NCBI GenBank assembly: GCA_014378705.1
Contig: JACMND010000053.1
Coordinates: 1 to 59,992 of the forward strand
From: Pedobacter sp.
GTDB taxonomy: Bacteria; Bacteroidota; Bacteroidia; Sphingobacteriales; Sphingobacteriaceae
Length of the DNA stretch: 59,992 nucleotides
Direction of reading: 5' to 3'
Under the pieces are notes generated by a model. The model worked only from the letters and a program-made list of their open reading frames with translations, ran no database searches and was not told the origin of the DNA. Both the position numbers and the translations under genes were made by a program. Positions 17,908-20,608 of this stretch are shown piece by piece (positions within the stretch are counted from its first letter, which is position 1; every line of letters starts with the position of its first letter).

Positions 17908-18246
17908 TTAATTTTCAATTTCAAAGTATAAATAATTATGGTTTTGGCAGCCCGGATTAAAAGATGCGCTACAAAAGGGGCAGGTGTAATTGCATTTAAA
18001 GTATTGCTGAATGGTTAGTTCAGCTTTACAAGCACCGCATAAAATAGCTTTGGTTTTTAATTCTTCTTTTTTCCATTGCTGAGGAAAATGATCAGCATCT
18101 TCTGCGTGGCATTTAAAACAAGGGTAATAGGTTTGGCAACATTTAAATTTTATAGCGACAATATCCAGGTCCGTATGATAATGCACACATCTGGTTTCAT
18201 TATCTAAACAATTTCCTTTTACCCGTATCGGTACTGCGGCCTTCAC
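17908..18246 (-). CDS. CHY zinc-finger protein
   Basis: A 112-residue protein dense in Cys and His: CVHYH near the N terminus, KCCQTYYPCFKCHAEDADHF, CGACKAEL and CPFC followed by C and H. This spacing matches the CHY zinc-finger family, which in eukaryotes includes Hot13 and E3-ligase modules. The bacterial stand-alone forms have no firm function; zinc binding is the safe inference. It starts 26 bp after metK on the same strand, so it may share that transcript and its SAM-dependent control. Confidence 0.85.
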   Translation of the reverse strand: MKAAVPIRVKGNCLDNETRCVHYHTDLDIVAIKFKCCQTYYPCFKCHAEDADHFPQQWKKEELKTKAILCGACKAELTIQQYFKCNYTCPFCSASFNPGCQNHNYLYFEIEN

Positions 18247-18272: not shown

Positions 18273-19526
18273 TTACAATCCAAAAACCTCTTTTAATTTT
18301 TCAACATAATCCAGCTTCTCCCACGTAAATAATTCTACTTCAACTTTCTTTTTCTCGCCTGTTGCGCTCGTAAATTCTTTCGTTACAATTTCATTTTTAC
18401 GGCCCATGTGGCCGTAGGCTGCTGTTTCAGAGTAAATTGGGTTGCGAAGCAATAACCTGGTTTCGATTCCATACGGGGTCATATCAAAAATGCTTTCAAC
18501 TTTTTGGGCAATCTCCCCGTCAGAAAGCCCAACTTTTGCTGAGTGATTGGTATTGATATAAATTCCCATCGGATTTTTTACCCCAATGGCATAAGATACC
18601 TGCACCAAAACTTCATCGCAAACGCCGGAAGCAACTAAATTTTTAGCAATATGCCGGGTTGCGTACGCTGCGGAACGGTCTACTTTAGACGGATCTTTAC
18701 CTGAAAAAGCGCCACCTCCATGGGCTCCCTTTCCACCATAGGTATCCACAATTATTTTCCGGCCGGTTAAACCACTATCTCCGTGCGGTCCACCGATCAC
18801 AAACTTACCTGTTGGATTGATGTGATATTTGATATGATCCGTAAACAAGGCTTGTAATTCTGGTTTAAGCTGCGATTTGATACGGGGAATTAAAATAGAA
18901 ATTATGTCTTCCCTAATCCTCTTTTGCATATTTTCTTCAGTATCAAAATCATCATGCTGAGTTGAAATTACGATTGAATCAATACGAGCGGGCTTGTGAT
19001 CATCTGAGTATTCGATGGTTACCTGCGATTTAGCATCCGGGCGGAGGTATGGGATATCTTTGTTCTGCCGCCGAAGGGCGGCAAGTTCAATTAATAACTT
19101 ATGAGCCAAATCCAATGCAAGGGGCATATAATTTTCGGTTTCGCTTGTTGCATAACCAAACATCATTCCCTGGTCACCGGCGCCTTGTTCCTGCTTTTCC
19201 TCCTTGTCAACGCCTTGGTTTATATCTGCCGATTGCTCATGAATGGTTGAAATGATGCCGCAAGAATCGGCTTCAAACATATATTCAGATTTGGTATAAC
19301 CAATTTTGCGGACCACTTCGCGGGTAATTCTTTGAACATCCAGGTAAATTTTTGATTTAACCTCACCTGCCAAAACTACCAATCCGGTAGTGACCAGAGT
19401 TTCACATGCTACTTTAGAATTGGCATCCCAAGCCAAAAAGTTATCAATAAGCGCATCTGAAATTTGATCAGCTATCTTGTCCGGGTGTCCTTCAGAAACG
19501 GATTCTGAAGTAAATAAATAAGGCAT
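18273..19526 (-). CDS. metK: S-adenosylmethionine synthetase
   Basis: Makes S-adenosylmethionine from methionine and ATP in the cytoplasm. Of 417 residues, the start [15 protein letters not shown] is diagnostic. The methionine/phosphate loops [10 protein letters not shown] and [16 protein letters not shown] are intact. The ATG at 19526 gives the canonical [13 protein letters not shown]; an ATG 27 bp upstream only adds residues atypical of the family. The 5' leader carries a putative SAM-II-like riboswitch. The CHY zinc-finger gene follows. Confidence 0.97.
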
Positions 19527-19587
19527 AATATCGGATTTAATTAATACTAGCAAATGACCGCAATGGAATTGAGGAAGTAAAAATCAG

Positions 19588-19666
19588 CATGTATTTAGCA
19601 CTTTTTTTTACGTGGTTGCAATCCTGTCAAGGTTATTTGACAACGCAAATCGATCCACTTTTTTGC
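19588..19666 (-). promoter_or_regulatory. Putative SAM-II-class riboswitch in the metK leader
   Basis: On the minus strand the leader shows, in order: GTGG (19658-19655), GATTTG, a small hairpin (ATTTG/CAAAT), AACC, ATTGCAA, CCAC (19615-19612, pairing with GTGG), an A-rich stretch and GTGCTAAA. The SAM-II core has the same blocks in the same order: stem, GAUUU, AACC, AUUGCA, closing stem, A-rich linker, GCUAAA. The extra hairpin between GAUUU and AACC is an insertion relative to the minimal form. Placement ahead of metK, and starting just after the putative transcription start, strongly supports SAM sensing. The class is inferred by eye. Confidence 0.72.
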
Positions 19667-19670
19667 AGGT

Positions 19671-19678
19671 CAAAAGTA
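19671..19678 (-). promoter_or_regulatory. Putative -7 promoter element of metK
   Basis: TACTTTTG on the minus strand matches TAnnTTTG. Transcription starting about seven bases downstream would begin right at the 5' end of the putative riboswitch, leaving a leader of about 140 nt. Confidence 0.55.
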
Positions 19679-19709
19679 TGATAATTTTAATATCCCTGAA
19701 ATTAAAAAC

Positions 19710-19717
19710 TATTTTTG
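19710..19717 (+). promoter_or_regulatory. Putative -7 promoter element of the lipid kinase gene
   Basis: TATTTTTG matches TAnnTTTG, 24 bp before the TTG start at 19742. It is divergent from the metK promoter with about 30 bp between the two -7 elements. No clear -33 element. Confidence 0.45.
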
Positions 19718-19741
19718 CCTTCTTTTAATTAAGCTTGTTTA

Positions 19742-20608
19742 TTGAAAAAGAGCATTCTTTTTGTAATTAATCCAATCTCAGGTGGCAAAAGCAAAATTAA
19801 CTTTCCCGCACTGGTAAACCAACATCTGGATAACCGAAAATTTATTCCGTCCTATATATATACTAAAAATGTCGGACATGCCTCTACAATAGCTACAGAA
19901 AATACAATGATGGACATTATTGTAGCCGTTGGCGGCGATGGCACAATCAATGAAGTTGCCTCTGTTTTAGAAAGTTCTCATCAATGCATGGGCATTATTC
20001 CATACGGTTCCGGAAACGGGTTAGCCCGGTCTATTGGCTTGCCTCTAAGCATCGCAAAAGCCATTAGCAGGTTAAATCATCTTAGAGTTTTTCAAATGGA
20101 TACGGGTGTATTGAATAATCGGAAGTTTTTTAACATAGCTGGTACTGGGTTTGATGCGCACATAAGCCAGAAATTTGCGCAACATCCTGGCCGTGGTTTA
20201 AATGGTTACATCCAATCTGCTTTTCGTGAAATTAGCACGTATCACCCTCAGAACTATACCTTGTATATTGATGGTATAAAATATCAAAGAAATGCATTCA
20301 TGATCAGCATTGCAAACTCATCTCAATATGGAAATAACGCACATATTTCTCCTTTTGCTTCCCTAGAAGATGGGTTGTTGGATATCTGTATAATCAGGCC
20401 TTTCCCTTTATATATGTTGCCATTTATTGGCTTACGGATGTTTAACAGAACAGCGCATTGTTCAAAATTTGTAGAAATAATAAAAGGTAGAAACATTATT
20501 ATTAATAGAGAAAAGGCAGATTTAGTTCATGTTGACGGTGAACCCTTACTCATGAATGCTGAACTTGAAATTTTTATAAAGCCCTTGTCTTTAAAAGTGC
20601 TATCATAA
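19742..20608 (+). CDS. Diacylglycerol kinase-family lipid kinase (YegS/BmrU type)
   Basis: A 288-residue lipid kinase. Motifs: NPISGGKSK at the N terminus, the nucleotide-binding GGDGTINEV, and PYGSGNGLARSIGLP. Further along, GTGFDAHISQKF and the HVDGEP segment are typical of the DAGK catalytic domain family. It probably phosphorylates diacylglycerol or a related lipid at the membrane. The start is a TTG: it gives the usual MKKSILFVINPISGG opening, and no in-frame ATG lies upstream close by. Confidence 0.9.
   Translation: MKKSILFVINPISGGKSKINFPALVNQHLDNRKFIPSYIYTKNVGHASTIATENTMMDIIVAVGGDGTINEVASVLESSHQCMGIIPYGSGNGLARSIGLPLSIAKAISRLNHLRVFQMDTGVLNNRKFFNIAGTGFDAHISQKFAQHPGRGLNGYIQSAFREISTYHPQNYTLYIDGIKYQRNAFMISIANSSQYGNNAHISPFASLEDGLLDICIIRPFPLYMLPFIGLRMFNRTAHCSKFVEIIKGRNIIINREKADLVHVDGEPLLMNAELEIFIKPLSLKVLS

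Follow-up and report, generated by a model that had tools for sequence, protein, structure and literature searches.

The metK leader in the 59,992-nucleotide stretch of Pedobacter sp. DNA analysed here (the window) is very probably a genuine SAM-II riboswitch belonging to the long loop family RF01726, most likely lowering metK when SAM is plentiful. Comparison of this leader with those of its relatives additionally yields a specific model, open to experiment, for the way in which SAM-II might regulate metK in Bacteroidota at large. A cmscan search matched RF01726 (SAM-II, "SAM-II long loop") on the minus strand at 19664-19585 with 46.8 bits, 2.8 bits over the gathering score of 44; it was the sole above-cut-off family match in the 60 kb, and its E-value of 8.2e-06 for the whole window places the motif far beyond chance. 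The alignment spans positions 1-60 of the 60-position model, with the P1 stem and the core blocks in order, and flags one non-standard pair at the outer end of P1. Immediately downstream lies metK (18273-19526, minus strand), an S-adenosylmethionine synthetase gene by Pfam PF00438, PF02772 and PF02773, so that a SAM/methionine gene context is present. The first-pass annotation of this DNA, made by eye from the sequence, had proposed a SAM-II-like riboswitch before metK; the covariance match above cut-off, in a family that the relatives share, bears it out. SAM binding and OFF control at the window locus itself we infer. The element is an ordinary, widespread riboswitch of a known family, carrying a loop insert of the family's known kind.

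All of the sequence blocks by which the motif had originally been recognized could be located, in the same order, around a GTGG/CCAC stem. Reading along the minus strand, the P1 5' strand GTGG (19658-19655 in the Rfam alignment) is followed by L1 GATTTG (19651-19646, identical to the RF01726 consensus there), AACC (19634-19631), ATTGCAA (19622-19616), the P1 3' strand CCAC (19615-19612, likewise from the Rfam alignment) and, last of the ordered blocks, GTGCTAAA (19601-19594). A 24-base stretch separates GATTTG from TTGCAACCAC (19621-19612). Two segments matching the RF01726 consensus, TTGCA (19621-19617) and TGCTAAA (19600-19594), we take to be the two strands of P2b, the latter also contributing to the binding site, with roles assigned from the SAM-II structure. 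Between P1 and TGCTAAA runs an A-rich linker, GTAAAAAAAAGT (19611-19600), whose GTAAAAA is paired, when the leader is folded at minimum energy, with a TTTTTAC farther downstream, and 67 bases separate TGCTAAA from the metK ATG at 19526. The ligand in the solved SAM-II structure is enclosed by P1 and the P2 pseudoknot; with SAM bound, GTGG/CCAC and the pseudoknot (TTGC with GC-U-AA) would close around it in the same way here, P2 perhaps being extended by CAG/CTG. Neither the plain aptamer fold (z of -0.74, from a folding program that cannot draw the pseudoknot) nor the whole window leader (z of -0.24) was stabler than shuffles, and no second RF01726 copy was found elsewhere in the genome (209 contigs searched).

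The extension of P2, here called P2a, lends itself to comparison, since TTGC and GCTAA were fixed by the locus patterns and P2b pairing thus carries no test value. The longest pairing between bases before TTGC and bases after GCTAAA averaged 2.62 in cognate combinations vs 2.36 in swapped ones (z of 3.5 over 104 distinct loci, uncorrected for kinship; 13 of 175 loci that did not fit a looser pattern were left out). P2a types among the loci include GG/CC, GAC/GTC, AATG/CATT and CAGG/CCTG. GA/TC is the most frequent (21 loci), but possibly not P2a, because the base immediately adjoining TTGC was admitted to the test. At the window locus the candidate 5' strand is CAGG (19626-19623), of which only CAG finds a partner (CTG, 19587-19585), and the nearby genome G012 has the full CAGG/CCTG.

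The family is well represented among the relatives of the window. Counting the window's own genome and accepting matches at E<=0.001, RF01726 was found in 25 of 41 nearby genomes, in 379 of 399 genomes of the same family (283 of them above cut-off) and in 15 of 118 genomes sampled across the phylum; within the genus, 19 of 20 genomes carry a match. A metK start could be located downstream in 157 of 161 related loci, the median distance from GCTAAA being 80 nt. At three of them (L044, L079, L088) this distance shrinks to 3-5 nt, so short that the metK start codon itself might be covered by the aptamer. These 161 loci include some redundancy (L081 is apparently the same genome as L025), and 119 of them were collected with a pattern that fixes GTGG/CCAC, the second locus pattern fixing most of P1.

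A promoter placed right at the motif, which the first-pass annotation had read from a -7 box, is also supported. The box, TACTTTTG (19678-19671, minus strand), lies 12 nt before P1 and is of the TAnnTTTG type, which we take to be the Bacteroidota form of the -7 motif. TAnnTTTG occurs no more than 30 nt from P1 in 149 of the 161 related loci, vs a mean of 2.5 in mononucleotide-shuffled flanks, and a promoter just before the motif is therefore conserved. Transcription would probably start a few bases before P1, a position reported as possible for SAM-II as early as 2005 (PMC1273637).

An extra hairpin in the loop had been proposed as well, and here our analysis corrects the pairing. The ATTTG/CAAAT helix originally suggested has a pairing probability of 0, costs 7.9 kcal/mol when forced (-5.5 vs -13.4 kcal/mol), and finds no CAAAT in the G012 insert; moreover, ATTTG belongs to the L1 strand of SAM-II, and its pairing would therefore disturb the known core. 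The partition function instead supports TGTCAA-ATAACC-TTGACA (19642-19625, with arms at 19642-19637 and 19630-19625) with pairing probabilities of 0.83-1.0. The TTGACAGG stretch that had been noted as a separate insert is indeed present, and holds the 3' arm of this likelier hairpin. The segment 19648-19625 is more stable than shuffles (z of -2.33), as to a lesser degree is the whole window insert (z of -1.8); the insert of G012, at the same position, folds no better than shuffles (z of -0.1). We infer that the hairpin projects from the junction of L1 and the P2 strand, which would leave the core unchanged. Among 19 same-genus loci, 17 have the compact loop CGTTGATTGC, the window and G012 carrying inserts at the same place. 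Loop inserts of at least 15 nt are found in 121 of the 161 loci, a share inflated because 119 of these came from a pattern demanding a long insert; that pattern returned at least 119 stretches, including Sphingobacterium, Pedobacter, Mucilaginibacter and Bacteroidales. Across 67 non-redundant members of the 121, the mean fold z is -1.59, and 46 fall below -1. The extra hairpin is thus real and not unusual, hairpin inserts recurring in other Bacteroidota.

How SAM binding might be read out is addressed by a plausible if tentative model, in which SAM-II leaders of metK in Bacteroidota alternate between two states. A conserved anti-aptamer element upstream of metK (in the window, 24-41 nt before the start) may capture two parts of the SAM-free aptamer: the P2 strand, and the transcript's 5' end joined with the P1 5' strand. 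In Bacteroidales this element would double as the 5' arm of an intrinsic terminator; the Sphingobacteriaceae, including the window, would lack such a terminator and use another readout, be it translational, through Rho, or by way of a U-tract adjoining the pseudoknot. Sequence comparison suggests this alternative pairing for the relatives taken as a whole, and does so weakly for the window's genus and locus. We scored complementarity between parts of the aptamer and the leader from GCTAAA to the ATG in 95 non-redundant leaders drawn from the 161 loci, divided into the window's genus (15), a mixed group labelled "other" (43), Sphingobacterium (22) and Bacteroidales (15); assignment to groups followed a genus list or how the loop insert ends, rather than a tree, and shuffles and swaps correct only partly for relatedness.

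Compared with shuffled leaders, complementarity to the P2b 5' strand gave z values of -4.0 in the window's genus, -6.4 in the mixed group, -4.3 in Sphingobacterium and -2.6 in Bacteroidales. For the 5' end plus the P1 5' strand, the corresponding values, in the same group order, were -4.7, -6.4, -2.8 and -8.1 with a 14-nt flank, which at the window locus overlaps the -7 box, so that some of its bases are not transcribed; -2.9, -7.5, -3.4 and -9.5 with a 9-nt flank; -0.3, -6.4, -3.2 and -8.2 with a 6-nt flank; and -0.5, -7.3, -3.9 and -3.4 with a 4-nt flank. The signal in the window's genus is lost with the 4- or 6-nt flanks, and therefore rests on bases 7-9 before P1, which are possibly untranscribed. 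An upstream control was flat in all four groups, and an L1 control was flat except in Sphingobacterium (z of -3.9, swap p of 0.017).

Swapping leaders among loci within a group gave a more differentiated picture. For the 5' flank plus P1, cognate leaders exceeded swapped ones in the mixed group whichever flank was used (the cognate value was reached by 0 of 2000 swaps) and in Bacteroidales at 9 nt (p of 0.001; 0.22 at 6 nt and 0.98 at 4 nt). No cognate preference appeared for this segment in Sphingobacterium (p of 0.20-0.59) or in the window's genus (p of 0.20-0.56), where the flanks are nearly identical. With the 9-nt flank taken without P1, the swap p was 0.70 in the mixed group, 0.24 in Sphingobacterium, 0.046 in the window's genus and 0.0015 in Bacteroidales. 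The P2b strand, which hardly varies, showed cognate preference in Sphingobacterium only (p of 0.0065). Individual loci carry matching changes on both sides, TGCAAAAAAGTGGA with TTCCATTTTTCTGCA at L017 and TGCGAGAAAGTGGAT with TTCCATCTTTTTTCGCA at L023; in Bacteroidales, the matching pair GGACAATG with CATTGTCC is changed at L130 to AAAACAATG with CATTGTTTT.

The comparison was extended to a further set of loci. Out of 54, 20 were too similar to earlier ones and 20 misfit the pattern or length, leaving 14 for use, one of which (L164) also served in the P2a test. Their 5' flank plus P1 gave z values of -2.8, -3.5 and -2.5 at 4, 6 and 9 nt, with swap p of 0.096, 0.056 and 0.017, respectively; their P2b strand gave a z of -6.8, with 8 of the 14 individually at p<=0.05 and an L1 control at -1.9. 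Seven loci (L003, L013, L014, L030, L031, L036 and L080) contain in the leader 8 consecutive bases fully complementary to the region of the P2b strand, e.g., TTGCAATC and CAATCAGC.

At the window locus, the candidate anti-aptamer element (19567-19550, minus strand) comprises TCCATT, TTGCGGTC and TTTGC, and the case for its predicted duplexes is weak at this locus. TCCATT...TTTGC (19567-19550) with the 9-nt flank plus P1 reaches -8.7 kcal/mol (p of 0.16), 5'-end pairing with the 14-nt flank has a p of 0.02 against 60 shuffles, and TTGCGGTC (19563-19556) with the P2b 5' strand reaches -9.2 kcal/mol (p of 0.04-0.09). Such complementarity in a single leader proves nothing alone; it is consistent with the pattern in the relatives.

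The output side of the proposed switch is clearest in Bacteroidales, where a terminator of -6 kcal/mol or better precedes the ATG in 14 of 15 leaders (mean over the 15 of -12.5 vs -1.2 in shuffles) and its 5' arm overlaps, by 4-11 nt, the leader segment complementary to the 5' end plus the P1 5' strand, again in 14 of 15. On paper, this arrangement is a complete attenuator. Six Bacteroidales metK terminators (L046, L052, L123, L130, L139 and L161) have a 5' arm that could base-pair with the P1 5' strand and the nucleotides preceding it. Intrinsic terminators of at least this stability were found in 0 of the 80 leaders of the three non-Bacteroidales groups, and a scan of 19480-19760 found none in the window leader. 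Sequestration of the start codon by the freed leader, judged from leader-only folds, had no effect in three groups (z of -0.1, -0.3 and 0.6), and in none of 40 shuffles was the start region more open than in the window itself. A hairpin between linker and tail (GTAAAAA/TTTTTAC) was considered and rejected, the linker giving z values of -1.9, -2.1, -2.1 and -0.1 in the four groups and -1.0 in the further set. At the window locus, a stop to expression may act via translation, Rho, or termination near the U-tract.

The last of these outlets could also operate without the alternative pairing: the aptamer alone would act, with transcription ended by the SAM-bound pseudoknot and the U-tract behind it (CTG-A-TTTTT, 19587-19579), and the downstream complementarity would be incidental. 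We regard this as unlikely, albeit with some features in its favor. The tract (TTTTTAC, 19583-19577) has a placement common to the genus: T5 within nt 5-28 after GCTAAA occurs in 14 of the 15 non-redundant loci from the genus, vs 3.5 in shuffles, and in 19 of 22 Sphingobacterium loci, vs 2.8, is not above chance in Bacteroidales (4 of 15 vs 3.5), which have a separate terminator, and at the window locus follows one base after the end of the candidate P2a. Against it, the mixed group lies little above chance (18 of 43 vs 13.1, sd 2.8), the Sphingobacterium tract begins 13-19 nt past GCTAAA, leaving a gap after P2a, the window's tract has only 5 T, and TTTTTAC can pair with the GTAAAAA of the linker instead.

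A different concern is that the window's element might be a decayed or ligand-shifted relative of SAM-II in which SAM sensing has been lost, as its score near the cut-off and its loop insert could be taken to indicate. The lower score fits the insert itself, however, as compact same-genus copies score 56.6-65.7 bits and the insert-bearing G012 copy 45.2; furthermore, the core blocks match the consensus, such inserts are common in the family and metK is still downstream, leaving decay a very improbable reading. Scarcely credible is assignment to another SAM riboswitch class (SAM-V, SAM/SAH or SAM-I), even with a pseudoknot core that SAM-V is described as having in common with SAM-II (PMC6061858). 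The covariance models proposed at the outset as a check, run permissively over the 401 bases of 19400-19800, returned SAM-II above cut-off, with SAM-I, SAM-V and SAM/SAH absent from the 7 hits with E-values of 10 or below. Only two of these hits were of SAM type, RF01726 and RF00521 (SAM_alpha), the latter at 25.4 bits, under its gathering score of 36; for the Rfam 15 models, another class is thus refuted.

The RF01726 family was described in 2010 as "SAM-II long loops", from Bacteroidetes and marine samples (Weinberg et al., PMC2864571), in an article whose text refers to Additional File 1 for SAM-II details. The window's element shares with it a full-length covariance match, the Bacteroidetes listing (PMC2864571), and core blocks and an A-rich linker as in the consensus, and differs in the spacing of GATTTG and GATTGC, 22 nt including the hairpin as against 3 in the model. 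It resembles the alpha-proteobacterial SAM_alpha (RF00521) in P1, pseudoknot, GCTAAA and the possibility that transcription starts just upstream of P1 (Corbino et al. 2005, PMC1273637), but falls short of that model's cut-off; a few occurrences in the Bacteroides group were already reported there (PMC1273637). Terminators after SAM-II have likewise been noted in general terms (PMC1273637, PMC2258182). SAM-II leaders also precede metA and metZ in S. meliloti, where metA is controlled at translation 74 nt downstream and metZ has a predicted terminator (PMC9373788). However, the S. meliloti SAM-II is alpha-proteobacterial and is described as acting through the Shine-Dalgarno sequence (PMC9373788), whereas the window's metK start, 67 nt past GCTAAA, lies in a region without sequestration in the leader-only fold. 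No experimental test of a model of SAM-II metK control across Bacteroidota was found in the literature searched, a scope outside which most subscription journals fall.

The first-pass annotation had also suggested that the riboswitch controls a CHY zinc-finger gene 26 bp after metK, as an unexpected member of a SAM regulon. The gene (17908-18246, minus strand) encodes a genuine CHY protein (PF05495, 48.9 bits; one match in the genome), and it begins 26 bp past the metK stop provided that translation starts at the GTG at 18246, a start that the N-terminus of the G012 homologue favors. Homologues at E<=0.001 occur in 4 of 41 genomes and lie behind metK only in the window's genome and in G012, where the distance is 107 bp; in G015 the homologue is on another contig than the riboswitch, and the genome of the fourth (G038) has no RF01726 match. 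A neighborhood seen in two genomes therefore makes no case for a SAM regulon, and the gene is left without support as a conserved partner beyond its position; it would be co-regulated only if co-transcribed with metK. The motif blocks, -7 box, metK and CHY gene of the original description accordingly stand, as do SAM-II before metK and a promoter at the motif, with the hairpin real under a different pairing and the ATTTG/CAAAT helix and regulon membership set aside. On the other side of the riboswitch lies a divergent gene (19742-20608, plus strand) for a diacylglycerol kinase-like protein of the YegS type.
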